The notes under the pieces were generated by a model. That model ran no database searches. It saw only the letters and a list, made by a program, of their open reading frames with translations, and was not told the DNA's origin. 64,000 nt of DNA from a virus: the IMG/VR virus record IMGVR_UViG_3300032242_000738, positions 20,220 through 84,219 of that record. The stretch is one strand, 5' to 3'. Of this stretch, positions 12,338 through 64,000 are shown one piece after another. Position 1 is the first letter of the stretch. Each line of letters opens with the position of its first letter. The position numbers and the translations under genes are program-made.

Positions 12338-12379
12338 CATATATGTTTCCTGATAAATATAAGTTAGGAAACATATATG
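12338..12379 (+). promoter_or_regulatory. Perfect hairpin enclosing a late promoter and hiding SD and AUG
   Basis: CATATATGTTTCCT (12338-12351) pairs perfectly with AGGAAACATATATG (12366-12379). The 14-nt loop begins with GATAAATA. The right arm holds both the AGGA binding site and the ATG of the gene at 12377. Read-through RNA from the early operon would be locked; late RNA starting about 12365-12367 would lack the left arm and be open. This is the arrangement known for T4 gene e. Confidence 0.8.
12352..12359 (+). promoter_or_regulatory. Late promoter box GATAAATA inside a hairpin loop
   Basis: Exact motif 17 nt before the start codon of the repeat adhesin. It shares the stretch GTTTCCTGATAAATA with the promoter at 13374. 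Confidence 0.8.
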
Positions 12380-13345
12380 TCAATAACAATTACAGGTGGA
12401 ATAACTTTTGGTAGTGTAGGTGGTGTAAGTATTATTGCACCGCCCGGTGGCACTCAAAAGGCTATATTTGGATATGGTGCAAATTCTGGTGCCATAGCTG
12501 TTAAAATAACTAACTTAGTAAGTAATACCGGTGTTGTTGCTACGGATACCGCAGGCGCAGGTACAGCTAGGCTTTCTCTATCAGCCTCTATATACGGCGG
12601 TGATAAAGCTGTATTTGGGTATGGTGCGGATACCGGCGGAGGTGCATTATCAATGACCAATCTAGTAAGTAATACAGGTGTGGTAGCGACAGATACAACC
12701 GGTGTTGGTATTACTAGGTTTTCATTAGCCGCGGCAGGCTATGGCACAGATAAAGCTATATTTGGATATGGCGCAAATTCTGGTGCTACGTCAATATCAA
12801 TAACCAACTTAGTATCAAATGCCGGTGTAGTAGCTACAGATACAACAGGTGTTGGTACTGCTAGACGATATCTTGCTGCCGCCGGCTATGGTACAGATAA
12901 AGCTATATTTGGATATGGTGAAGATAGCGGTGGCGGTACATTGTCAATGACTAACTTAGTAAATAATACCGGTGTTGTTGCTACAAATACCACAGGTGTC
13001 GGCACTGATAGAAGTCACCTTGCAGCCACAGGATATGGTAGTTCAGGACAGGCTATATTTGGATATGGATCAAATTCCGGCGGTATTGGAGTAAAAATAA
13101 CCAACCTAATAAGTAATACCGGTGTTGTTGCTACTGATACTACAGGAGTAGGCTCTGCTAGGCTTTCTCTATCAGCCTCTATATACGGCGGTGATAAAGC
13201 TGTATTTGGGTATGGTGCGGATACCGGCGGAGGTGCATTATCAATGACCAATCTAGTAAGTAATACAGGAGTAGTTGCTACAGATACAGCTGGTGTAGGT
13301 ACTGCTAGATATGGATTAGCAGCCGCAGGGTATTCATTAACCTAA
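12377..13345 (+). CDS. Repeat adhesin, six or more about 49-residue propeller-like repeats
   Basis: 322 aa. An N-terminal anchor (MSITITGGITFGSVGG then APP) closely resembles that of the protein at 23315. The rest is repeats of about 49 residues with the core KAIFGYG, NLVSNTGVVATDT, G-x-G-x-x-R and L-A-A-x-G-Y, which suggests a kelch-like or related beta-propeller/beta-helix built from six to seven units. There are no catalytic residues. Likely a virion surface appendage that binds host or particles. It holds a 113-bp exact direct repeat in frame, so its length could change by recombination. Expression is gated by the hairpin over its start. Confidence 0.65.
   Translation: MSITITGGITFGSVGGVSIIAPPGGTQKAIFGYGANSGAIAVKITNLVSNTGVVATDTAGAGTARLSLSASIYGGDKAVFGYGADTGGGALSMTNLVSNTGVVATDTTGVGITRFSLAAAGYGTDKAIFGYGANSGATSISITNLVSNAGVVATDTTGVGTARRYLAAAGYGTDKAIFGYGEDSGGGTLSMTNLVNNTGVVATNTTGVGTDRSHLAATGYGSSGQAIFGYGSNSGGIGVKITNLISNTGVVATDTTGVGSARLSLSASIYGGDKAVFGYGADTGGGALSMTNLVSNTGVVATDTAGVGTARYGLAAAGYSLT
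12566..12678 (+). repeat. 113-bp exact direct repeat, copy 1
   Basis: Identical base for base to 13157-13269; the flanking bases differ. The distance between copies is 591 bp, or 197 codons, so a cross-over would remove four protein repeats in frame. Confidence 0.95.
13157..13269 (+). repeat. 113-bp exact direct repeat, copy 2
   Basis: Second copy of the repeat at 12566-12678. The rest of the gene shows only diverged repeat units, so this identity points to a recent duplication or gene conversion. Confidence 0.95.
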
Positions 13346-13401: not shown

Positions 13402-14199
13402 ATGACAATATCATCAACAGCAAATATCCTATCTACACCATCTGGTCTACGACTAGATGAACTAAAACAGGCACTATTCCAAAACATTAGATATCGTCTA
13501 GGTGATGGTATCATTGACTTAGAATTAGATCCTCAACACTATGAGGCTGCTTATAACTATGCTATTAAAGTATATCGTCAAAGAGCACAAAACGCTACAT
13601 CAGAATCTTATACTCTTTTTACAATAGAAAAAAACGTAGATACTTATACACTTCCTAGTGAATTCATCAATGTACGCTGTTTATATCGTAGAACAGTTGG
13701 TCTTGAAACAGGGCCAGGTTCTAGCAGTTTTGATCCATTCAGTAGTGCTATTCTTAATACATACTTACTAAACTATAACTATGCAGGTGGTATGGCAACA
13801 TATGACTTTTATGCTGGTTATGTTGAATTAGCCGCACGTATGTTTGGTGGTTATGTTGTATATACATTTGATCCAGTAACAAAAGTTTTACGTATAGTTC
13901 GTGATCCAAAAGGTAGTGGTGAACGTGTTCTTATTTGGGCAGACATACAACGAACAGAAGAAGTATTATTACAGGATCCGGGCGCTGGTGTTTGGATTGG
14001 CGACTTTGTGTTAGCTAATCTTAAAGTAATTATCGGTGAAGCACGTGAGAAATTTGCTAGTATTGCAGGGCCAGGTGGTGGAACAAGTTTAAATGGTGCA
14101 GCCATGAAAGCTGAAGGAAAGGCTGCAATGGAACTATGTATTGACGAACTCAAACGTTATGTAGATTATAGTCAACCACTAACTTGGGTACAGGGCTAA
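13402..14199 (+). CDS. 13: Neck (head-tail connector) protein, gp13-like
   Basis: 265 aa. The N-terminal part LDELKQALFQNIRYRLGDGIIDLELDPQHYEAAYNYAI and the following YTLPSEFINVRCLYRR are typical of gp13-like neck proteins in T4-like marine phages. The middle contains beta strands, and the C-terminal part is a helix with AAMELCIDELKRYV. gp13 binds the portal after DNA packaging, together with gp14. In T4 genes 13, 14 and 15 are contiguous; here gp13 is on the plus strand 3.4 kb from the minus-strand 14 and 15. The assignment rests on family resemblance. Confidence 0.7.
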   Translation: MTISSTANILSTPSGLRLDELKQALFQNIRYRLGDGIIDLELDPQHYEAAYNYAIKVYRQRAQNATSESYTLFTIEKNVDTYTLPSEFINVRCLYRRTVGLETGPGSSSFDPFSSAILNTYLLNYNYAGGMATYDFYAGYVELAARMFGGYVVYTFDPVTKVLRIVRDPKGSGERVLIWADIQRTEEVLLQDPGAGVWIGDFVLANLKVIIGEAREKFASIAGPGGGTSLNGAAMKAEGKAAMELCIDELKRYVDYSQPLTWVQG

Positions 14200-15369
14200 A
14201 TGAGAGCCAATGAATTCATAACAGAAGTCAGAGATCGGATGTATCAATACATCCGAAGCATTGTTCCTACATGGCCAGAATATGTTGTGCAAGACTTGTT
14301 GTATAAAGGTCGCGGTAAAAATAAAAATTATAATGTCAATAGTGATGTCAAAGGCGAAATCCTTGAAATGATTGCGGACGCAGGACTAAGTCCCAACACT
14401 AACCCTTGGCAACTTGTGCCCAACATGAAGTTTACCATGGATATGTTTACTCCAAAGACCAAACAGAATTTAATAGCAAGGGCTGGCGGAAAAAGTGATT
14501 TAGGTATGGGCATACCAAAAGATGCTGAAAGACATGCTACACAAGCCGCACTTGTTCAACAAGTAGGTGTGAGTAAAGAACCAGTGATCTTAATAAAAAC
14601 ACCACACGGATATGCTCTACCAGAAGGTTGGCACAGAACTATACAACACTTTGCCAAGTATCCTGACGGATATACGGGTCCTGCTTATGTAGCAGTGGCA
14701 CATGGTCAGAACAGTTTGGAGGAAGGCTTGGAAGATTATGAAGGTATAAAAATCAAGTTCAGCAAAGATTCTAATGGAGTAGCAATCAAAGCATTATCAA
14801 ATGACAGCAACAAAGTATTAGGAAGTGTTGAACTATTTTTCAACGAAAAGGGACAGTTAGAACCGCAAGACCTTTGGGTCAATGATCGTTATCAAGGACA
14901 AGGCATTGCTAAAGCAATGTATGACTTTTTAAAAAATAAAGGCTACACTATTATTAGAAGTTGGGATCAAACTGACGCAGGTGCAGGATTTTGGAACAAG
15001 CACAAAGGCACAGGGGTCAATGTCTGGGAACAAGGTGTGGCGGAAGGCATCTCAAACGACATGTCTACAAAAGATATGATTGCATATCTAAGACAACACC
15101 ATGATACAAATCTACATCAAGATTATCTAAATCACATAAACACATTTAGCAAGTTTGTGTTACAAAATGTTCCTGTAAATTCAATCAAAACAAATTTGCC
15201 TAAACTAGATCCTGCAAAAGTAGAACAATACAAACAAATGGATTTTAGTAAGGCTCCTCCTATTGTAATGGGCGGGGGATATATTTTAGATGGTTACCAC
15301 AGAGCCAACGTAGCAAAAGCATTGGGTATTCCTACTATTAAAGCCTATGTTGGTATCACAACAAAATAA
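14200..15369 (+). CDS. Candidate capsid-targeted polyprotein: ParB-like, GNAT, ParB-like domains
   Basis: 389 aa, starting directly after the gp13 stop. N-terminus MRANEFITEV looks like a T4 capsid-targeting sequence with I-T-E at 7-9. Module 1 (10-172) ends with a ParB/sulfiredoxin-like stretch (PVILIKTPHGYALPEGWHRT). The junction L-E-E-G (173-176) follows. Module 2 (177-278) is a GNAT acetyltransferase-like domain: LWVNDRYQGQGIAKAMYDFL and a final GFW-x-K. The junction V-A-E-G (280-283) follows. Module 3 (284-389) has a second ParB-like motif (ILDGYHRANVAKALGIPTI, AYV). Both junctions match the prohead-protease rule (hydrophobic-x-E before G). Packaging and cleavage are inferred; ParB-like and GNAT are motif-level calls. 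Confidence 0.65.
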   Translation: MRANEFITEVRDRMYQYIRSIVPTWPEYVVQDLLYKGRGKNKNYNVNSDVKGEILEMIADAGLSPNTNPWQLVPNMKFTMDMFTPKTKQNLIARAGGKSDLGMGIPKDAERHATQAALVQQVGVSKEPVILIKTPHGYALPEGWHRTIQHFAKYPDGYTGPAYVAVAHGQNSLEEGLEDYEGIKIKFSKDSNGVAIKALSNDSNKVLGSVELFFNEKGQLEPQDLWVNDRYQGQGIAKAMYDFLKNKGYTIIRSWDQTDAGAGFWNKHKGTGVNVWEQGVAEGISNDMSTKDMIAYLRQHHDTNLHQDYLNHINTFSKFVLQNVPVNSIKTNLPKLDPAKVEQYKQMDFSKAPPIVMGGGYILDGYHRANVAKALGIPTIKAYVGITTK

Positions 15370-15428: not shown

Positions 15429-16061
15429 ATGATTATTGGAATTACGGGACTAATTTCGAGCGGCAAAGACACTATTGCCGACTATCTTTGCACATTTCAC
15501 GGGTTCAAGCGTGTTAGTTTTGCGGCATCATTGAAAGATGCAGTAGCAGCCGTCTTTGGTTGGGATAGAGAATACTTAGAAGGTTCAACTAAAAAAAGCA
15601 GAGAATGGCGAGAACAAAAAGACCAATGGTGGAGTGATCGTTTAGGAATGAATATTACACCAAGATGGGTATTACAATACTGGGGAACAGAGGTATGTCG
15701 TAATAACTTTCACAATGATATTTGGGTAGCTAGCGTAGAGAATAAATTACGTCAAACCACTGATAATATTGTAATTACCGATTGTCGTTTTGCTAATGAA
15801 GTAAGTGCAATTAAGAATGCCGGCGGAATTACTATGCGTGTTAGTCGTGGTCTACGTCCAGAATGGTATAGTGCGGCAGTTGATTACAATAATGAACCTG
15901 CAGGTAGCGAATCACATCAAAAAGCTATGGTAGAATTAGCTAATTATGCAGTACATGCCAGTGAATATAGCAGTATTGGATTATTGTATGACCATTATAT
16001 TGATAATAATGGATCAATTGATGATTTGCACAAGCAAGTCAACTCAGTAGTCAACTTGTAA
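15429..16061 (+). CDS. 1: Deoxynucleoside monophosphate kinase, T4 gp1-like
   Basis: 210 aa from the chosen start at 15429, which has AGGAG 8 nt upstream (15417-15421); the longer frame from 15408 overlaps the -10 box. The P-loop GLISSGKDT is at residues 7-15, followed by GTEVCR, VITDCRFANE and a C-terminal part typical of phage dNMP kinases. The enzyme phosphorylates dNMPs released from host DNA, feeding phage DNA synthesis. It is early, from its own sigma-70 promoter. Its 3' end overlaps the convergent HNH gene by 18 nt. Confidence 0.88.
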   Translation: MIIGITGLISSGKDTIADYLCTFHGFKRVSFAASLKDAVAAVFGWDREYLEGSTKKSREWREQKDQWWSDRLGMNITPRWVLQYWGTEVCRNNFHNDIWVASVENKLRQTTDNIVITDCRFANEVSAIKNAGGITMRVSRGLRPEWYSAAVDYNNEPAGSESHQKAMVELANYAVHASEYSSIGLLYDHYIDNNGSIDDLHKQVNSVVNL

Positions 16062-16388
16062 GTCACCACGTTTCCAAGTAACTTCTTTCTTTTTAACTAC
16101 TTCTACACAGTTAAGACATATACTACGTAAGTTAACCAAGTCAGCATTTTCTAAATTACCGTCAATATGAAAGACGGTAATCTGACTTGGGAATAGACTT
16201 TTGAAACCGCATAAATCACATGCGGTTTTTTTCTTATATCCTTTAGTTTTCCATTTAGGATTTCTAGGTTTAAGTTTGTTTTTCTTTCTACCACACTCAT
16301 CACACAAGCTTCTATAGTGTGTTATACCTAGCCGTTTATAGTTAACAGCACAGTGGTTCTTTCCGCAAGTATTACATATAGGTCGCAT
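16044..16388 (-). CDS. HNH-type zinc-binding endonuclese-like protein
   Basis: 114 aa from the preferred Met at 16388; the frame stays open to 16466, but homologues known to me begin MRPICNTCGKN. Three Cys pairs occur: CNTC, CDEC and CDLC, plus C-x-x-C at the end (CLNC). The HNH-like core is VFHIDGNLENADLVNLRSICLNC (H, N and NL-x-x-x-C). Such small proteins are frequent in T4-like cyanophages. It could be a free-standing homing-type nuclease or a recombination or packaging-linked nuclease. It is convergent with dNMP kinase, with an 18-nt overlap of coding ends. Confidence 0.75.
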   Translation of the reverse strand: MRPICNTCGKNHCAVNYKRLGITHYRSLCDECGRKKNKLKPRNPKWKTKGYKKKTACDLCGFKSLFPSQITVFHIDGNLENADLVNLRSICLNCVEVVKKKEVTWKRGDLQVDY

Positions 16389-16447
16389 GATGTATTTACT
16401 CACGGAACCTTCAAAGGCACGGTAAGACTGTCTTTTTAAAGGTATTT

Positions 16448-16455
16448 GATAAATA
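16448..16455 (+). promoter_or_regulatory. Late promoter box GATAAATA of the sheath gene
   Basis: Exact motif 54 nt before the sheath ATG at 16509, followed by a leader ending in AAAGGAAATATAAA. It lies inside the unused 5' extension of the minus-strand HNH frame. Confidence 0.75.
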
Positions 16456-16508
16456 TTAATATGCAATCAGGTAGTAAACCTCAAAATTTTACATAAAGGA
16501 AATATAAA

Positions 16509-20147: not shown

Positions 20148-20786
20148 ATGGCAACAGCCTCACAATCATTGTTTAACATGACAGTAGCGTCAGATAACTC
20201 TGGCGGAAATCAGGGCTTGCTAATGCCCAAACTACAATATCGTTTTAGAGTTAATTTTCTAAACTTTGGAGTTAGTAATGCCACTAATGAATTAACTAAG
20301 CAAGTTATTGACGTAACACGCCCATCAGTTAGTTTTGGTGAAATTAACATACCAGTTTATAACTCTACTATGTATTTGGCAGGTAGACATGAATGGCAAC
20401 CACTAACGGTTAATGTTCGTGATGATGCATCCGGTAGTGTTTCAAAATTAGTTGGACAACAGTTACAGAAACAAATGGACTTTGTTGAACAAGCTTCAGC
20501 CGCAACAGGTCAAGATTATAAGTTTCAAACAAATATTGAAATACTAGACGGTGGTAACGGTACTGCTACTCCAGTTGTATTAGAAACATGGGAAGTATAT
20601 GGTTGCTTCTTGCAGGCAGCTAATTACAATAACCTAGCTTATAGTTCTAACGAAGTTGTAACAATACAATTATCAATTCGCTTTGACAATGCAATTCAAT
20701 CACCATTGAGTTCTGGAGTTGGTACAAGTGTTGGTCGTGCCTTAGGTGGTAAATCAACTACAGGTATTGGTTCTGGTCAAGCTTAA
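20148..20786 (+). CDS. 19: Tail tube protein, gp19-like
   Basis: 212 aa. The order and motifs match tail tube proteins of T4-like phages: an N-terminal KLQYRFRVNF strand, KQVIDVTRPSVSFGEINIPVYN, then AGRHEWQPLTVNVRDD and a C-terminal ETWEVYGCFLQAANYNNLAYSSNEVVTIQLSIRFDNA. The tube forms the DNA channel inside the sheath. It lies immediately after gp18, as in T4, with its own late promoter and a strong binding site. A Gly/Ser-rich tail follows the core. Confidence 0.93.
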   Translation: MATASQSLFNMTVASDNSGGNQGLLMPKLQYRFRVNFLNFGVSNATNELTKQVIDVTRPSVSFGEINIPVYNSTMYLAGRHEWQPLTVNVRDDASGSVSKLVGQQLQKQMDFVEQASAATGQDYKFQTNIEILDGGNGTATPVVLETWEVYGCFLQAANYNNLAYSSNEVVTIQLSIRFDNAIQSPLSSGVGTSVGRALGGKSTTGIGSGQA

Positions 20787-20804: not shown

Positions 20805-21992
20805 ATGTCTGGATTTTTTCAGAACTTATTAACAGACACTGCCGCGGGATTCTTCGGCAGTGAATACCTTCGTGATTATACTCATGCTAGTAAAACATTT
20901 AGACCTAATGCATATCAATATGCACCTAAGTTTAAGTTTCTGTTTCATGTATATTTTGAAATCAATCAAAGTGCATATGCTGTGGGATTACCACAAGGTG
21001 CAAATTTTGGTCTAGCAGTTAAATCTGTAAAATTACCAAGCTATAGTTTTGATACACATACGATGAATCAATATAATCGTAAACGTATCGTGCAAACAAA
21101 AATAAAATATGATCCAATTGATATTAATTTCCATGATGACAATGGAAATTTAATACGTAACATGTGGTATAACTACTATACATATTACTATAAAGATGCA
21201 AGTATTCCAGTAGCATCAGTATCAGGCCGTCAAGCACAACAAACAGGTAATGGTAGTACAAATAGTCCCAATAATGCAAACTATAACCTACGCAACATAT
21301 ATTCACAATCTATTACCGGTGACACAGATTGGGGCTATATAGGTGAAACATCAAGTACGCCTGCAACTAACATACAAGCAGGTAATGGACAAACCAAAAT
21401 TCCATTCTTTAAAAATGTTACAATATTTGGTTTCAATCAACATAAGTATGTAGCTTATACATTAATTAATCCTATCATTAATAGATTTGCACATGATACA
21501 TACAATTATGCCGAAGGTAATGGTACTATGGAAAATACAATGACGTTGGATTATGAAACTGTTAAGTATTTCCAAGGTGCTATTAGTGGCAAAGAACCTA
21601 GTAACATTGTTGCTGGTTTTGGTCTAGATCAAAATTATGATAGAATAGTTAGTCCTATTAGTAGACCGGGTAGTCAGGCTAGTATATTAGGTCAAGGCGG
21701 ACTAGTTGACGGTGTTAATGGTGTCATTGATGATTTATCAGGATCTAATAAAAATATATTAGGTGCTATACAAAAAGCTGGTGCAACATATAATACTCTT
21801 AAAAATATCAATTTAAAACAAGCAATTAAGAGTGAAGTAACTGCAGGTATTACTAATGCTATTATGAATCCATTAAATAATACTGGAAGAAATGTATTGT
21901 TTAATTTACCTATATTTGGTAGTACCCCGAATCAAGCAGCACAAGCAAATGGTAGAAACGTACTTCCTCCGGATATAAATATAGGGGGATAA
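20805..21992 (+). CDS. Tail-tube-related baseplate protein (tube initiator or cap type)
   Basis: 395 aa. Residues about 35-125 (APKFKFLFHVYFEI, LAVKSVKLPSYSFDTHTMNQYNRKR, KYDPIDINFHDDNGN) show the tube-protein fold pattern also found in gp19, gp48 and gp54. Residues 200-270 give the second half (VTIFGFNQHKYVAYTLINPII, MTLDYETVKY). The C-terminal 120 residues are low-complexity and helical. Position after gp19 and fold suggest the baseplate protein that starts or caps the tube; which of gp48 or gp54 it corresponds to is not decided. It has no Shine-Dalgarno and follows a hairpin. Confidence 0.6.
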   Translation: MSGFFQNLLTDTAAGFFGSEYLRDYTHASKTFRPNAYQYAPKFKFLFHVYFEINQSAYAVGLPQGANFGLAVKSVKLPSYSFDTHTMNQYNRKRIVQTKIKYDPIDINFHDDNGNLIRNMWYNYYTYYYKDASIPVASVSGRQAQQTGNGSTNSPNNANYNLRNIYSQSITGDTDWGYIGETSSTPATNIQAGNGQTKIPFFKNVTIFGFNQHKYVAYTLINPIINRFAHDTYNYAEGNGTMENTMTLDYETVKYFQGAISGKEPSNIVAGFGLDQNYDRIVSPISRPGSQASILGQGGLVDGVNGVIDDLSGSNKNILGAIQKAGATYNTLKNINLKQAIKSEVTAGITNAIMNPLNNTGRNVLFNLPIFGSTPNQAAQANGRNVLPPDINIGG

Positions 21993-24357: not shown

Positions 24358-24987
24358 ATGCGTAGTCTAAAACAATACATAACCGAAAGTCTTAAAAGTT
24401 ACAATTATACTATAAAGATTGCTGGTGATGTGGATAAAAACTTCTTAGATATGTTTAAATACAATCTAAACAAGTTTGACCCGATCAGAATCAGCGAGCC
24501 AACTAAAACACCTATACAGAAAGATCCGTATGGATTTCCTAATTTAAATAATCAATCTGTAACTATTATTAAAGCTGATTTTAGATATCCAGCTACTGAG
24601 CCAATGATACAACAAATTGCTCAATTATTGGGCTATAATGTTAACATGGTTCGTGTTATTAGTAGCCATTATGATGATAGCATTAATAGTGAGGCTGAAG
24701 GCTATGCTAATGAAATGAAAGATAGTCCAATACTTACACATGAAGAAATGGGTGAGCAACCTGGTGCTAAAGAAGCTGCCAAACAATATGGTGATAGTTA
24801 TTTAACTAGTATTAAAGATCAAATGAAGGGTTCAACTATTGATATTCCTTATGCAGGTCAAAAGACTCCTGATGCGTTTGATCCATTCAAGCCATATTTG
24901 GATGATAAAAAAATGGGCGATAAGAGTCCAATGAGTACAATTAAACGCCCACCAAAGCCAGCAACTGGCGCTAGCGTATCAAAATAA
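24358..24987 (+). CDS. Candidate internal head protein with capsid-targeting leader
   Basis: 209 aa. The N-terminus MRSLKQYITESL closely resembles T4 internal-protein leaders (MKTYQEFIAE), with I-T-E at 8-10 followed by S as the predicted prohead-protease cut. Residues 17-110 form an alpha/beta domain (YTIKIAGDVDKNFLDMFKYNL, QSVTIIKADFRYPAT). The rest is Pro/Lys-rich with SPMSTIKRPPKPATG at the end. Similar proteins, as I recall, are conserved in T4-like cyanophages. It has late promoters, AAAGGATACC as binding site, and is followed 12 nt later by another leader-bearing gene. Confidence 0.6.
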   Translation: MRSLKQYITESLKSYNYTIKIAGDVDKNFLDMFKYNLNKFDPIRISEPTKTPIQKDPYGFPNLNNQSVTIIKADFRYPATEPMIQQIAQLLGYNVNMVRVISSHYDDSINSEAEGYANEMKDSPILTHEEMGEQPGAKEAAKQYGDSYLTSIKDQMKGSTIDIPYAGQKTPDAFDPFKPYLDDKKMGDKSPMSTIKRPPKPATGASVSK

Positions 24988-52540: not shown

Positions 52541-53530
52541 ATGAGATATATTGTTGTCATGCCGGGAGGCTTTCACCCATTTCATGCTGGACATGCCGCA
52601 TTGTATCAGAGTGCAGTAAAAGCATTTCCCGGTGCCGACGTTTATGTGGCTGCAACTAATGACACAAAGACACGTCCGTTTCCGTTTGCTATTAAAGAGA
52701 AACTAGCAAAACTTGCAGGTGTAGCTGATAAACACTTTGTACAAGTTAAAAGTCCATTTCAACCTAGAGAAATAACCGATCACTATAACCCTGCAGAAGA
52801 TGTATTAATCTTTGTACGTAGTGAAAAGGATCGTAATGAAAGCCCTAAACCAGGTGGTACAAAGAAAGATGGTAGTCCTGCTTATTTTCAACCATGGACA
52901 GGTAAAAATGTACAGCCATTTGGTAAACAAGCATATATTGCTTATCTGCCGACAGTAGAGTTTGGCCCTGGCATTACTAGTGCAACAGAGATACGTAATG
53001 CATGGCCTACATTGAATGATAAACGTAAGACAGCGATGGTTATGAGTTTATATCCTGTAACACAAAAGAATCCTAAACTAGCCGCTAATGTTGTTAAGAT
53101 GTTAGATATGGGTATGGGTAGTGAACTGTCGGAGGGCGAAATTATCCCATTCAAACAACCATCAAAAACATTAACATGGCAACAAGTACCTAGAGATATT
53201 TTGTTACTAGCCAATGATTGGTTTTGGGCAAGTGAAGATAACTCAGGTCTTGCCGCTACTATAGATCCTGAGGGTTTTGGTAATGGTACTGCTAATGATG
53301 TAAAATATTTAACAGCAAAACTTCAACAAAAAGGCTGGACAATTGATTTTAATGATGAATATGATGGTCCGGGAGAATACAATCTAAGACTTACTAACAA
53401 ACGTGGACAAACGGTATTATTGTCTATTGAGGATGCTCAGACATTTACCGGTTGGGCAAAGGGTACTAGTCAATATGATTTAGAAGAAACTACTGTTACC
53501 GAAAACTTAGATTACCTAGAAGAAAAATAA
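52541..53530 (+). CDS. HxGH nucleotidyltransferase with a cleavable-looking C-terminal module
   Basis: 329 aa. Residues 1-190 are a nucleotidylyltransferase of the HIGH superfamily (NMNAT/PPAT type): GGFHPFHAGH at 9-18 with H15-A-G-H18, and SATEIR at 147-152 in place of ISSTxxR. L-S-E-G at 196-199 then separates a different module (205-310: WQQVPRDILLLANDWFWASEDN, GWTIDFNDEYDGPGEYNLRLTN) and an acidic end. The substrate is unknown; NAD synthesis is one option. The junction fits a prohead-protease site, but the N-terminus is not a leader peptide. Confidence 0.75.
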   Translation: MRYIVVMPGGFHPFHAGHAALYQSAVKAFPGADVYVAATNDTKTRPFPFAIKEKLAKLAGVADKHFVQVKSPFQPREITDHYNPAEDVLIFVRSEKDRNESPKPGGTKKDGSPAYFQPWTGKNVQPFGKQAYIAYLPTVEFGPGITSATEIRNAWPTLNDKRKTAMVMSLYPVTQKNPKLAANVVKMLDMGMGSELSEGEIIPFKQPSKTLTWQQVPRDILLLANDWFWASEDNSGLAATIDPEGFGNGTANDVKYLTAKLQQKGWTIDFNDEYDGPGEYNLRLTNKRGQTVLLSIEDAQTFTGWAKGTSQYDLEETTVTENLDYLEEK

Positions 53531-57985: not shown

Positions 57986-60169
57986 ATGGACCTAAAAGAA
58001 CTACACTCCTTCAAATTGTCAGATGCTGTGACATTTCACGATCACCTAAATCCTAAACTATTTCGTGGTCAACATCTACAACCTGAAGTAGAACTACAAC
58101 TAAAAACAATTGCAAAAGATTTCCTACAAGAGATGGGAATACATGATTTAGATGTACGTGATATTACTATATCCGGAAGTAATGCAGCCTATAGCTATAC
58201 AGACCATAGCGACTTAGATTTACATATTCTAGTTAATATGAGTGATTTACCTAACGATGAAATATACCGTGAATTGTTTACAGCTAAAAAAGACTTATAT
58301 AATGATTCACATGATATTACTATTCACGGAATTCCAGTAGAATTATATATACAAGATGCATCAGAACCTGTAGTTAGTTTAGGTGAGTATAGTATTAAAG
58401 ATAACAAATGGTTACGTTTACCTACAAAACGTAGAGCAAACTTTGACCAAACAGCTACTAAAGCAAAATATAATAAGTTATTAGATGTAATTGAGAAAAC
58501 ACTACAAACTGATAATATAGCCAAAGTATCAAAAGTATTGAAGAAAATCAAACAATATCGTCAAGCTGGATTAGATAAAGGTGGAGAGTTTGGCCCTGAA
58601 AACTTAGCATATAAAATGTTGCGTAGCCAAGGTTATATTACAAAATTATATGATTTGCGTGATAAGTTACATAGCAAAATATTAAGTTTGAATGGTATGT
58701 ATTCTAATGTACTTGATGAAATTATAGATATGCCTCCAATTACTAGGCGTATGGATATACAATCAATGTATAATGATGTACAGACTAAACTTAAATATCA
58801 TCAGGCAACTAAGTTAACATCTATTAATTTTCCTATGAAAAATCAAGTATTTCGTGAAGATAATTATGGATATAAGTTTTTCTTATTTAACAAAGAGAAT
58901 AAACCAGTGTTTTATCTTGGTATAAGTAAGTTTCATGATGGTTACAAAACAGGTGCGGTTGCGGGTGAAAGTGAAGTTAGTGGACAGGGTTTAGGATGGA
59001 AGTTATATAAAGCAGTAAGTGATTATTTAAATGTACCTTTATATAGTGATAGCACACAAACATCTGATAGTAAGAAGGGTATTTGGCAAAAACTAATACA
59101 TAATTATCCTAAACAAGTGGTAGGATATGACCAAATATCACGTAAGGATGTACCCATTAAAAACATATATCAACCATTACCACAAGATCAGTTACGACAT
59201 GTAGATGATGATACCAGAAGAAATACATTGTTATTAAAGTTTCTACCAGCTGTAGTACAAGAAGATTTAAATGAATCATTTGGTATAGGTCCACTACAAG
59301 TAGGTGATATGTGGTTTGATATTAGAAAACATGCATTAGAGAGATTAGAAGAACGTAGGGTACCTATATCTACTGCAAAAGAATTGTTACGTAGAATTTC
59401 ATTAATGAAGAATAAAATTCAACAAATGGATGCGGGACAGGCTTTTTGGGTTCATGATCCTAGTTTAGGTATTTCAATGGGTATGAGGTTATTGGGCAGT
59501 GGTAAAGTTCAATGGGCTACTACTATTATAGGTGAACCTAGAAACCGTGATGCTAATAATCCAATAATTGATATCAATGAAGCTTTTCATAAGCCATATT
59601 CATTTAAATGGGAAAAGAGTGAGTACGGTGATTATGATGCATTAGCAAAACTACCAGACGACACAAACTTAAGCATTATGTTTAATCTAGCCGATATGTC
59701 AGATAATAACTGGGGGGTTGAATTTTATAGAAACAATAGTCAATCGGTCACCGGGGAAGGTGATGCTCAACGAGTATTTGCTACAGTACTAAATGCTATT
59801 AGTCAATTTATTAAAAAGAAAAAACCTAATACTCTATTTTTTACCACTGTAAAAGAAGAAGATCCTACTGGCAGCAGAACAAAACTATACGATAGATTAG
59901 CTCAACGATATGCTACTGGGTTAGGTTACGATTTAAAAAAAGTAGAATATCCTGAACAAATAGGATATAAGTTAACACGCAACGAACAAAAAGTAACAGA
60001 AGCCTCTGGTTATATTCCTAGCGAAAAAGAAAAGAATGACCCACGTTACAAGACAGCATTAACTGTGGATGTACATCCAGATAGTATCAAAAAGAACGCT
60101 AAATCCTTCTATTGGAAGACTAATAGAGCTGGAATTCCACCAACAGCTAATCCTTCAGGCAAAATCTAA
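57986..60169 (+). CDS. Modular protein: nucleotidyltransferase, GNAT-like and further modules with E-S/E-A junctions
   Basis: 727 aa. Starts MDLKEL (L-K-E). Module 1 (about 1-280): nucleotidyltransferase, GSNAAYSYTDHSDLDLH with D76 and D78, third acid E119 (IPVELYI). Module 2 (285-395): GNAT-like, SGQGLGWKLYKAVSDYL and GIWQKL. Junction L-N-E/S at 428-431. Module 3 (432-528): IRKHALERLEERRVPISTAKELL, WVHDPS, GKVQWATTI, reminiscent of small toxin-like domains. Junction I-N-E/A at 530-533. Module 4 (534-668): PYSFKWEKSEYGDY and a GNAT-like end. Junction V-T-E/A at 670-673, then a basic tail (GYIPSEKEKNDPRYKTALTVDVHPDSIKKNAK) that I recall as a common module of marine phages. Cleavage and packaging are inferred. 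Confidence 0.7.
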   Translation: MDLKELHSFKLSDAVTFHDHLNPKLFRGQHLQPEVELQLKTIAKDFLQEMGIHDLDVRDITISGSNAAYSYTDHSDLDLHILVNMSDLPNDEIYRELFTAKKDLYNDSHDITIHGIPVELYIQDASEPVVSLGEYSIKDNKWLRLPTKRRANFDQTATKAKYNKLLDVIEKTLQTDNIAKVSKVLKKIKQYRQAGLDKGGEFGPENLAYKMLRSQGYITKLYDLRDKLHSKILSLNGMYSNVLDEIIDMPPITRRMDIQSMYNDVQTKLKYHQATKLTSINFPMKNQVFREDNYGYKFFLFNKENKPVFYLGISKFHDGYKTGAVAGESEVSGQGLGWKLYKAVSDYLNVPLYSDSTQTSDSKKGIWQKLIHNYPKQVVGYDQISRKDVPIKNIYQPLPQDQLRHVDDDTRRNTLLLKFLPAVVQEDLNESFGIGPLQVGDMWFDIRKHALERLEERRVPISTAKELLRRISLMKNKIQQMDAGQAFWVHDPSLGISMGMRLLGSGKVQWATTIIGEPRNRDANNPIIDINEAFHKPYSFKWEKSEYGDYDALAKLPDDTNLSIMFNLADMSDNNWGVEFYRNNSQSVTGEGDAQRVFATVLNAISQFIKKKKPNTLFFTTVKEEDPTGSRTKLYDRLAQRYATGLGYDLKKVEYPEQIGYKLTRNEQKVTEASGYIPSEKEKNDPRYKTALTVDVHPDSIKKNAKSFYWKTNRAGIPPTANPSGKI

Positions 60170-60224: not shown

Positions 60225-61145
60225 ATGAAAATCAGTCAAATCATCAGTGAAACAACTACAGCAGGCTCAATAGCTACTGTAGACACAGCTTTAGGTGCTA
60301 CACAATCTAGGGGTAATCCTAGCATATATGGCAATAAGAAAGTTGGTAACCTTTTTAAAGGCAAGAAAACAAAAGCTCCATACGCTAATAGCATCAATGA
60401 AAGTGCTGAAATTAGCGAACAAGATTTAAGTGAACAAGATTTAATTGTTGTTCCTGGTCAGGGGCGTAGTCTTAAAACTGGATTTGTCAAACATGATCCT
60501 GATCGTGCAGAACATGAAGGACAAACATTAAAGAATAGTTTACATACTATTATTCGTGTAGCAAAACATTTGGATCAAGAATTATCAACAAGAGATGACT
60601 TCCCTGAGTGGGTTTCAGAGAAAATTGGTGCTACAAAGAGCATGATGGTATCTGTTATGGATTATTTAATTAGTGCAAAAGAAATGAATCATGATCCAGA
60701 TGCGGTTGATGAAAGTATAGAAAATAATCCAGTTGCAAATGCAATCATAAGTCATGTTATGAAATATCGTCCTGATTTATTAAAACATGGTGCTGACCGT
60801 GTAGGTGATGCTATTGATAGAATTGTAAGTCGTGTAGGTAATGTTAAATATATCAGTCCTGATAACTTAAACAAATTGATAAAACAAGTTGAATACTATG
60901 TTACATCTAATAACCATGACATGTATGAAGGTAAACCTAATACAAAATGTGTATGCAAAACAATGGGCCAAGATCAATGTCCAGTACATGCTCCATTAGA
61001 TGAAGGTGCTAAAGTAGACCGTATGGTTAAGCATGTTGCACAATCAGAAAAGAAACTTGGTCACAGTAAAAAAGAAGCAGAGAACATTGCTTGGGCTACA
61101 GCCAACAAGCGTGGCATGTTAGACAATAAAAACAAGAAGAAGTAA
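60225..61145 (+). CDS. Candidate capsid-targeted internal protein
   Basis: 306 aa from ATG 60225; the frame runs open upstream into the previous gene, but the promoter and binding site point to this start. N-terminus MKISQIISET, with I-S-E at 7-9. A conserved-looking leader follows (TTAGSIATVDTALGATQSRGNPSIYGNKK), then sites I-N-E/S (57-60) and a small duplication SEQDLSEQDL. The helical middle (EWVSEKIGATKSMMVSVMDYLISAKEMN) is followed by C-x-C...C-x-V-H (CVCKTMGQDQCPVH) and a basic end DRMVKHVAQSEKKLGHSKKEAENIAWATANKRGML. Likely an internal head protein or set of peptides; function inferred. Confidence 0.65.
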   Translation: MKISQIISETTTAGSIATVDTALGATQSRGNPSIYGNKKVGNLFKGKKTKAPYANSINESAEISEQDLSEQDLIVVPGQGRSLKTGFVKHDPDRAEHEGQTLKNSLHTIIRVAKHLDQELSTRDDFPEWVSEKIGATKSMMVSVMDYLISAKEMNHDPDAVDESIENNPVANAIISHVMKYRPDLLKHGADRVGDAIDRIVSRVGNVKYISPDNLNKLIKQVEYYVTSNNHDMYEGKPNTKCVCKTMGQDQCPVHAPLDEGAKVDRMVKHVAQSEKKLGHSKKEAENIAWATANKRGMLDNKNKKK

Positions 61146-61146
61146 T

Positions 61147-64000
61147 ATGAGTAATATTCTTAAAGGTATATTAAACGAATCTAATCCTTTTTATGGACAT
61201 AATGATCCAGCAAAAGAATACGGAGCTGATGCACCCACATATCGTAAACGTGGCCCTTATTCACATACAGATGATGATGAAGATGTTAATCCATTTGCTG
61301 AATATGAACGTCAGCAAAAAGACTTTGCTATTGGTCGTGCAAAGAAAGCGGCAGCTGAAAAACAACAACGTGATAGTGACCATGATAGATTAGCTAGTGG
61401 TACAAATGAAAGTATGGATGATCCATGGGGACCACAAGGTAACTTTGCAGGTGATACGCCAGTCAATTTAGGTGGTGTGTCTATGAAGATCATACAAGTA
61501 GGTGATACTGTTAAGTATTTTGGATACCCTGCTAAAGTAGTTGATATGAGTAAGGATCGTAAGTATTCACGCATTACAATTACTAAAGGGATGGGTAGTG
61601 TTACACAAGATGTATTAACAAGTGATTTACAACAATTAGGTCGTGGTAAAGAAGTACGAGAAGATAATAATACTAGAATGAAAATGGATCAGTATTATGA
61701 ATTAGCAGATGCTATTCAAGAAAAACTCAGAAACGCAATACAGTTTGGTGATAAAGAACTTATAAAAAAATTAAACAAAGAACGTGAAGAATTAGATGCA
61801 CGTGTTAAACAACATGGATTGATGCCCGAATCAGAACAACTAGATGAAATCTCTAATGAGAAACTAGCACAATATAAAACAGCTGCCGCTGCCGATGCAG
61901 GCAAAGCTGATAGTGAAGGTGATTACAAACGTGGTGATAAACGTTTCAGTGGTATTGTTCGTGCAACTAAAAAACAATTTGCTAATGATGCAAAGAAATC
62001 TGCTATTAGTCAAGGTATAAATGAATTTTCTGTAAATCCTACTGGTCCTAAAGGTCCTAAAGATTACGGTCAACCAAATAGTTCACGTTATATAGGTGGT
62101 AACAAGTTTGTAGTAGGTACTACTAACAACTATGTGTTAACTGCAACAATAGACAAATGGGGATTAGAATGGGATGAGGATGATGAAGTATGGTTCTTAG
62201 ACAGTCCTGGTGCCGCACATATTGCTGATGCAAGTGAAGGTGAAATAGAATTGCCCCCACCACGTGAACAGAGATATCAAATACATGATTTAGTAACTGA
62301 TTATCTCAATAGTAAAAATTTAGCAGATTTACAAAAAGTAGCCAAATACTATGGTCATAGTGATGACGGTGAAATGGCAACAAATGAAGAATATAGACCT
62401 ACAACTGGTCAAGCTAATAATATACGTAAACAAACTGCACAGAAAATGAATCCAGGCAGTAGTAAATTTGTTTGGAAAAGACCTAATCAAATAAGTGGTA
62501 GTCATACTGAACAAGAATTACTATCAATGGGTTTTCGTAAATCTACAAAGAGTAACGTATGGGGCGGTACACAAGATATGTGGAATCGTTTATCAGAATC
62601 ATTATATGAATTTGCACCAAATAATGATGATGACGATTCAGATGACTATCAGATGTTAAGAAAACTAGCGTCACAATGGTATAATGGATCTGATGACCAA
62701 ATGTTAAAGATTGAACATGTGTTATCTACCATGGGTTGGGAAATAGGTGAAGATGAATCTGGTGAACCAGATGCAGGTGTATTTGTAATACGCACCGGTG
62801 ATATCAATGGTGATACATATATTGCTTTCCCCGAAAGTGAATTAAATTTAAATGAAAACTTAGGTGATCAATTAAAATCTACATCATTAGATGCATTGAT
62901 TCAAGCTAAACTAGCTATAGAGAAACAACGTGAAGCTGACATAGAAGCTTGGAGACAGGATTTTGAAAAGAATACTGTACAAAAAGCACAACAAGGTTTA
63001 CGTAGACAATTTGAACCAACACCAGTATCACAGCCTGGCGAGAAGCATTCAGTATTAAAGAATAGATTAATGCAATTGAATAGTGCTATAGAGAAACAAG
63101 AAATAGTAGATAAGTTAGTTGATAGATTAGAACGTAAGGGTTTAATGACTCCTGCAATGAAGAATGATACTGATACAAGAATGCATGTTAGATATGGTGC
63201 AAAAGATAACTATCAATCATTAAATCAGAAATTGGATAATGCTATTAATATGTTAAAACATAGATTGGCAATGCGTAAGATTTCTGGATTGAAGGAAAGC
63301 AATGATGAAGAACAATTAGATGAATTAAGTTGCTGGTCTGGTTATCATAGAGTTGCTGGTACCAAAGCAGGCTTTCCAGGTAGTTGTGAAAAAAACAAAA
63401 CTAATGAAGATCACACCGAGAAATGCCCGCACTGTGGTGGCGAATTGGTCAGTGAAGAATTGATGAATGAAAAGAAAGATGCTTGCTACTATAAAGTTAA
63501 GAGCCGTTATAAAGTATGGCCAAGTGCTTATGCTAGTGGTGCGTTAGTTAAGTGCCGCAAGAGCCATGGTAGTTGGGGCAATGGTGGAAAGAAGAATGAA
63601 AGTTCTATACTAGAAGGCATTGAAAGAGCAGATGAGAACTTACACCAATGGTTCAAAGAAAAGTGGGTACGTTTTGGTCCTGATGGAAAGATTCGTGGTG
63701 ACTGTGCTAGAGGTGATGATAGTGAAGGTAAGCCAAAGTGTTTACCACAAAGTAAAGCACAAAATTTAGGTAAGAAGGGTCGTGCAAGTGCTGCTGCACG
63801 TAAGCGTAGAGAAGATCCTAATCCAGAACGTAGTGGTAAAGCCATCAATGTTAACACCAAAAAGAAGTCTAACGAAGGTGTGGCGGAAGGCTCTAACGCC
63901 GGAGATATTGAATTATCACATAGTATGTCTCCTGATATGTTGTATGTACACGCTACATCAGATGGAACAGATGTAGGTGGCGCAAGATTTAAAAAAATAG
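61147..64000 (+). CDS. Very large modular internal-head-type polyprotein, cut by the window edge
   Basis: 951 codons are visible, still open at the right edge. Starts 1 nt after the upstream stop with MSNILKGILNES (L-N-E/S at 9-12). Modules: 90-175 small beta domain; 233-285 LDEISNEKLAQYKTAAAADAGKAD with KRFSGIVRATKKQF; 290-370 unknown; 480-570 LYEFAPNNDDDDSDD then WEIGEDESGEPDAGVFVI; 570-715 coiled coil; 725-750 CWSGYHRVAGTKAGFPGSCEK; CPHC (760-763); 779-813 ACYYKVKSRYKVWPSAYASGALVKC; 834-890 WFKEKWVRFGPDGKIRGDCARG with KRR, DUF5872-like. Junctions include L-S-E/S (482-485), L-E-G (822-824) and V-A-E/G (912-915). The C-terminal half is basic and Cys-rich, suiting DNA contact. Roles are inferred. 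Confidence 0.7.
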   Translation, partial: MSNILKGILNESNPFYGHNDPAKEYGADAPTYRKRGPYSHTDDDEDVNPFAEYERQQKDFAIGRAKKAAAEKQQRDSDHDRLASGTNESMDDPWGPQGNFAGDTPVNLGGVSMKIIQVGDTVKYFGYPAKVVDMSKDRKYSRITITKGMGSVTQDVLTSDLQQLGRGKEVREDNNTRMKMDQYYELADAIQEKLRNAIQFGDKELIKKLNKEREELDARVKQHGLMPESEQLDEISNEKLAQYKTAAAADAGKADSEGDYKRGDKRFSGIVRATKKQFANDAKKSAISQGINEFSVNPTGPKGPKDYGQPNSSRYIGGNKFVVGTTNNYVLTATIDKWGLEWDEDDEVWFLDSPGAAHIADASEGEIELPPPREQRYQIHDLVTDYLNSKNLADLQKVAKYYGHSDDGEMATNEEYRPTTGQANNIRKQTAQKMNPGSSKFVWKRPNQISGSHTEQELLSMGFRKSTKSNVWGGTQDMWNRLSESLYEFAPNNDDDDSDDYQMLRKLASQWYNGSDDQMLKIEHVLSTMGWEIGEDESGEPDAGVFVIRTGDINGDTYIAFPESELNLNENLGDQLKSTSLDALIQAKLAIEKQREADIEAWRQDFEKNTVQKAQQGLRRQFEPTPVSQPGEKHSVLKNRLMQLNSAIEKQEIVDKLVDRLERKGLMTPAMKNDTDTRMHVRYGAKDNYQSLNQKLDNAINMLKHRLAMRKISGLKESNDEEQLDELSCWSGYHRVAGTKAGFPGSCEKNKTNEDHTEKCPHCGGELVSEELMNEKKDACYYKVKSRYKVWPSAYASGALVKCRKSHGSWGNGGKKNESSILEGIERADENLHQWFKEKWVRFGPDGKIRGDCARGDDSEGKPKCLPQSKAQNLGKKGRASAAARKRREDPNPERSGKAINVNTKKKSNEGVAEGSNAGDIELSHSMSPDMLYVHATSDGTDVGGARFKKI

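Follow-up and report, generated by a model that had tools for sequence, protein, structure and literature searches.

A modular phage polyprotein with prohead-protease-type junctions and a linker shared at the DNA level, probably packaged and cut in the prohead

Introduction

Eukaryotic RNA virus polyproteins yield several proteins from one chain through a viral protease, and in integrons and polymorphic toxins modules are swapped at a constant joint. Phage proteins delivered from the head act before phage gene expression, and known anti-restriction factors are among them. Several of the closest described systems are of this second kind. The T4 proteins IPI-IPIII and Alt are accessory proteins that are carried in the head and ejected, and they bear a leader of about 10 residues which is cut after the Glu of L/I-x-E; in IPIII the first 10 residues direct targeting, and L/I-x-E is the site after which the protease gp21 cuts (PMC9026906). 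Several S77-type cuts after Glu in a single head protein are known from T4 gp22 and gp67 and from inner-body/ejection proteins of the phiKZ and SPN3US type (PMC9026906, PMC10052503). The internal antirestriction proteins DarA and DarB of P1 are likewise packaged in the head and delivered with the DNA, DarB being targeted by its N-terminus and DarA believed to be processed (PMC9024508).

Here we describe a 389-residue phage protein that departs from each of these systems. Each T4 internal protein is a single protein, whereas the chain described here combines several unrelated modules and repeats an internal site. The fragments of gp22, gp67 and the phiKZ- and SPN3US-type proteins are mostly discarded scaffold or propeptide, whereas each predicted fragment here is a folded, exchangeable domain, and for DarA and DarB neither a multi-module chain nor a shared linker has been described. 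Unlike in RNA virus polyproteins, integrons and polymorphic toxins, cutting here would fall to a capsid-maturation protease inside the prohead, and the cleavage site would be encoded by the joint itself. We know of no T4 counterpart to the DNA-conserved linker or to the module shuffling. In the open-licence literature we found no description of the linker peptide, of a phage polyprotein with a prohead protease or of capsid targeting combined with a polyprotein, which is weak evidence of absence; polyproteins with the shared linker are apparently a large, undescribed class of phage proteins.

Results

The window, a stretch of 64,000 bases (bases 20220-84219 of an 84,219-base virus record), is a T4-like phage fragment. 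The ORF list and translation place the modular polyprotein gene on its + strand at 14200-15369, with an ATG that abuts the stop codon of an upstream head-tail adaptor gene (13402-14199, PHROG head-tail adaptor Ad2). The ORF, its leader and its two junctions are exactly as an initial annotation of this DNA had described them. The leader MRANEFITE (14200-14226) resembles T4-type capsid-targeting propeptides and has a predicted cut after E9 (14224-14226). It is followed by module 1 (residues 10-175; 14227-14724), ParB/sulfiredoxin-like in predicted structure and containing EGWHRT, and by junction 1, NSLEE↓G (14710-14727; the arrow marks a predicted cut, here after E175 at 14722-14724), which is diverged linker DNA. 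Module 2 (residues 176-282; 14725-15045) is a GNAT acetyltransferase by Pfam and Foldseek. Junction 2, QGVAE↓G (15031-15048; predicted cut after E282, 15043-15045), is an exact copy of the shared linker CAAGGTGTGGCGGAAGGC and leads into module 3 (residues 283-389; 15046-15366), whose predicted structure is ParB-N/sulfiredoxin-like and which contains LDGYHRA. All these features lie on the + strand. No T4 late promoter (TATAAATA) was found near the gene, and the count of this motif in the window was below chance.

The GNAT domain was the only one that Pfam recognised by sequence in the 389-residue protein (Acetyltransf_1, 22.9 bits against a cut-off of 20.7), and in the full AlphaFold model Foldseek matched the same region to the GNAT structure 3pp9 (E 6e-4). 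Matches of the full model to sulfiredoxin (E 4e-3) and ParB-N (E 7e-3) structures (2rii, 5k5d) were individually weak. Folded alone, module 1 gave a confident model with weak matches to 6ky4 and 6ryk (E 6e-3 to 4e-2, sulfiredoxin at 6e-3). A GxHR loop is present in both outer modules, as EGWHRT in module 1 and DGYHRA in module 3. No ParB sequence family was matched above its cut-off, and modules 1 and 3 are at most ParB-like in fold, not ParB proteins. The acetyltransferase proposed by the initial annotation was thus confirmed, and its two ParB-like modules stand as ParB/sulfiredoxin-like folds on weak structure matches. AlphaFold, run with a 39-row alignment, gave three domains, and its low-confidence stretches (169-173 and 270-285) are the two junctions; a single continuous fold across them was not seen. 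Since the GNAT domain is recognised by sequence, AlphaFold separates the domains and Foldseek matches them to GNAT and to sulfiredoxin/ParB-N, we read the modelled protein as a chain of three separate folds. A search of the PDB by sequence gave no match, a defence library search no convincing match, and no cultured phage was found with this protein or with either of two linker-rich polyproteins.

The letters EFI-x-E are those of T4 internal-protein leaders. Scanning for the leader only, blind to downstream sequence, we found MRAxEFIxE on at least 95 ORFs of many kinds, so that proteins otherwise largely unrelated share an N-terminal leader, some 10 residues long and with hydrophobic-x-Glu at its end, as expected if it is of the T4 internal-protein type that had been proposed. 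At the N-termini of polyproteins, a first leader regular expression gave no significant excess (28/113 vs 543/2856, p 0.14), and a second, simpler [ILVM]-x-E test gave a significant one (64/113 vs 602/2855). In some leader proteins the Glu is followed by a NASVGATSSGSVATV-like sequence, which also stands behind the predicted capsid cut (LAE↓SATAGATSAGNIATLNRV) in the same phage group, and this post-cleavage arm of the capsid protein follows a Glu in 12 non-capsid ORFs. Leader genes among the matches listed are often two small genes side by side. Pairs of small leader genes, of about 125 residues and of the 'DPYxxYRFGVAxA' and 'DRxYxLNRxMMA' types, lie 370-420 bases apart in many contigs, jumbo ones included (L047, L048, L049, L064, L073, L077, L089, L091, L092, L103 and L119).

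Further leaders occur in the window itself, again on the + strand. The gene at 24358-24987 is conserved in the structural block and begins MRSLKQYITE↓S; its divergent homologues keep Y[IL]xE↓S (MKKFHDYLAE↓S in G017, MRPFAQYLAE↓S in G013). The protein encoded at 60225-61145 begins MKISQIISE↓TTTAGSIATV, and the residues after its predicted cut resemble the mature N-terminus of capsid proteins. Upstream of it lies a modular ORF (57986-60169) with a nucleotidyltransferase domain first and several V/I/L-x-E junctions, one of which, KVTE↓ASGYIP, has the counterpart QGVAE↓ASGYIP in L021; downstream, another modular ORF with the leader-like start MSNILKGILNE↓S (61147-64000) continues past the window end. 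These three ORFs form a second cluster of the same modular, leader-bearing class.

The junction recurs far beyond the window. QGVAE↓G was found in more than 100 viral contigs, with up to about 10 copies per ORF, and a fully degenerate search for [KEQ]QGVAEGS returned at least 117 distinct hits, in ORFs with a median length of 651 residues and up to 11 motif matches each. The codons at QGVAE are nearly fixed (at least 232 sites in at least 92 non-redundant ORFs), Val being GTG in 93% against a background of 24% and Ala being GCG in 93% against 12%, a fixation that the degenerate search did not demand. Among the matches listed, one 15-mer is common to 182 of 232 QGVAE sites, and conservation ends sharply beyond about 19 bases. 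With codons so nearly fixed, protein function cannot be all that holds the junction constant. Each of the 268 distinct exact copies of the viral 17-mer among the matches listed sits within an open ORF, in the frame that reads QGVAEG; across 257 Gb of bacterial genomes we counted 70 scattered copies in mixed frames, near the chance level of about 30 estimated for a random 17-mer by base count alone. The junction is thus fixed as a DNA word, about CAAGGTGTGGCGGAAGG, yet among the matches listed always in one reading frame. The 17-mer under E282 is the only exact copy in the window; at up to 3 mismatches there are 2 copies against 0.03 expected, the other being at 63874-63891 (+ strand, one mismatch, EGVAE↓G) inside the modular ORF 61147-64000. 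The DNA under E175 (14710-14727) matches 13 of 18 bases of the linker consensus, a score reached or exceeded on the + strand of the window, the two clear copies aside, at three other positions only.

At the protein level the linker is constrained unevenly. Among 346 copies with up to 2 mismatches, none selected by pattern and all taken from loci retrieved on account of other linker copies, Glu occupies P1 in 342 and one of V/M/L/I occupies P3 in 343, and variation is seen at the linker's first Gln and at the residue that follows the cut. The GAA codon shows a nonsynonymous:synonymous ratio of 4:32 vs 129:3 for the CAA codon (p 1e-26), two codons with the same mutational options. Because of this contrast, which recombination alone would not produce, selection acts on a protease signature, a hydrophobic P3 and a near-invariant P1 Glu, which supports the initial annotation's reading of the junctions as gp21-type. 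The P3 residue at QGVAE is Val, whereas T4 gp21 prefers Leu/Ile.

The linkers also divide what is exchanged. We cut 163 non-redundant polyproteins at the motif, and 126 of the 375 internal segments obtained matched another segment over their full length, compared with 6-8 full-length matches when the cuts in the same polyproteins were shifted. The neighbours of homologous segments were homologous in 7 cases and not homologous in 566. Homology blocks ended within 10 residues of a junction in both proteins in 20-26% of cases vs 2% for random positions; as a definition of module borders this signal was moderate only, and the cut-and-match test was used instead. The class thus consists of independently folding modules divided by repeated, selected motifs of cleavage type. 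Most of 26 related viral loci have only one module in common with the window protein, and the local matches end near the predicted cuts. Module 1 directly follows the leader in some relatives (MRASEFLIE↓, MRAQEFIVE↓) and is internal in other chains, module 3 stands after unrelated modules in L011, L012 and L023 with copies 79-87% identical, and L003 has a polyprotein that lacks the GNAT module. The same modules in other orders, for which the initial annotation had proposed a search of related phages, were therefore found; the conservation of the junction at the DNA level and the junction as a point of module exchange it had overlooked.

Strong conservation of the linker as DNA together with free shuffling requires recombination and does not require cleavage. 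The linkers could accordingly be recombination joints only, with QGVAEG tolerated as a flexible linker in an uncleaved multidomain protein. We regard this as unlikely: conservation by DNA homology alone should not give 4:32 at the P1 Glu beside a freely drifting Gln codon, the variants retained (V/M/L/I-x-E) stay near the gp21 rule, the leaders end in the same motif as the linkers, and the capsid proteins of relatives carry the same kind of site.

Those capsid proteins come from 39 linker- or leader-bearing records, 11 of which have a full gp23 match; all 11 also have an S77 protease, and their capsid proteins contain L/I-x-E sites of the LAE↓S and ILE↓N type. The T4 portal was found in 13 of 24 tested records. 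Neither S77 protease nor gp23 was found in the 84-kb contig that contains the window. Both, and the portal, are present in G032 and G033, the nearest tested relatives by tail tube (77-78% identity), where the head genes lie 120-145 kb from the tail-tube locus and, in G033, occupy 63-66 kb. The head locus is absent from half of the large linker-bearing records, including the 342-kb G013, and a search of head-less records with Peptidase_S78 and an S77 profile gave no match. Since some head-less records keep the window's tail/terminase block (G013 and G017 have it and lack head genes), those contigs are probably incomplete and stop short of the head locus; for G013 and G017 a different head is possible. 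The description of the polyprotein as "self-dicing" was wrong, as the cutter would be a separate S77 prohead protease of the phage.

A protease that removed the leader alone would leave the internal junctions uncut in the prohead, and the whole chain would be injected. The leader is indeed the sole part that resembles a classical T4 capsid-targeting sequence, and in SPN3US the identified cuts all removed N-terminal propeptides, the protease's own C-terminal propeptide excepted (PMC10052503). However, where module 1 is internal it is preceded by VAEGxEQI[TN]E↓, which combines VAE↓G with xQI[TN]E↓, and the latter looks, from its sequence, like a leader remnant inside the chain. The junction Glu is also strongly selected, and gp21 cleaves a number of T4 core proteins, gp22 and gp67 among them, into multiple pieces (PMC9026906), so that we consider removal of the leader alone distinctly improbable.

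Although a word of about 17 bp conserved to its synonymous positions amid otherwise unrelated contexts might suggest a mobile or site-specific DNA element, such as an endonuclease or recombinase target translated by coincidence, we rejected this as very improbable, since such an element would be expected also out of frame, antisense and in intergenic DNA and the exact viral copies among the matches listed are all in one frame.

A link to virions comes from a cultured phage. Mass spectrometry detected gp154, gp156 and gp160 in virions of cyanophage S-CREM2 (PMC10665884). By our comparison, gp156 matches the window ORF 57986-60169 (36%, E 4e-39), gp160 matches ORF 61147-64000 in two parts that stand in the opposite order, and gp154 matches polyprotein modules in other contigs. 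Because of these homologies, modules of the linker-polyprotein class appear to be virion-associated; none of them is a module of the 389-residue protein, and in S-CREM2 the three are separate genes whose sequences lack the QGVAEG linker. The protein gp154 (L463, 2555-3415) begins MKNFSSFLTE↓A, a gp21-type leader on a virion protein detected by mass spectrometry. It is a cytidylyltransferase; the window gene 52541-53530 looks cytidylyltransferase-like by eye, and gp154 does not match it at E 1e-3.

Discussion

The 389-residue protein is probably an effector polyprotein that is packaged and then cut in the prohead, and that was put together by shuffling of modules through the linkers, because packaging, cutting and ejection jointly account for the leader, the Glu-specific constraint, the match to capsid sites and the virion-associated homologues. 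Points on the other side are the Val at P3, the near-fixed codons, the first leader test, the modest share of homology-block ends near junctions, and a contig in which neither S77 protease nor gp23 was found. By homology, the leader MRANEFITE would act as a propeptide for capsid targeting and carry the chain into the core of the prohead. There an S77 (gp21-type) prohead protease would cut after E9, E175 and E282 and set free the GNAT and the two ParB/sulfiredoxin-fold modules as three separate small proteins, which would be ejected with the DNA and may modify host targets at an early stage of infection. With T4 Alt and IPI as the basis of analogy, reasonable guesses at what the payload does are acetylation, nucleotide-dependent modification of host proteins or counter-defence.

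The class would evolve through exchange of whole modules at the junctions, with one word, about CAAGGTGTGGCGGAAGG, that both encodes the putative cleavage site QGVAE↓G and is the putative crossover point. Crossover in the linker during module exchange would keep linkers alike and may be the simplest source of their constancy as DNA. More broadly, the balance tips slightly towards T4-like environmental phages running a cassette system for head-delivered effectors, in which recombination across unrelated phages maintains one word of about 17 bp that is both the crossover joint and the code for the prohead-protease site. A phage with such a system could gain an injected effector by one in-frame insertion, and the effector would need neither its own gene nor a separate promoter or leader. 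If the junctions mark packaged effectors, the 17-bp word finds, from metagenomes alone, many head-carried modules, nearly all with no assigned function. Two testable questions follow: can a capsid-maturation protease also process polyproteins, and do phages maintain a joint in their DNA through which effectors are traded? The linker and leader could also serve as tags to load and release cargo in phage heads.

Three other features of the window were noted. A small HNH-like protein is encoded beside the tail sheath gene (16044-16466, - strand), in the same place as in G013 and G017. Two adjacent tail-tube-like genes (20148-20786 and 20805-21992) both belong to PHROG 4542, the second being nearly twice as long. 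The protein encoded at 12377-13345 consists of repeated FGYGANSG.../NLVSNTGVVATDT units.
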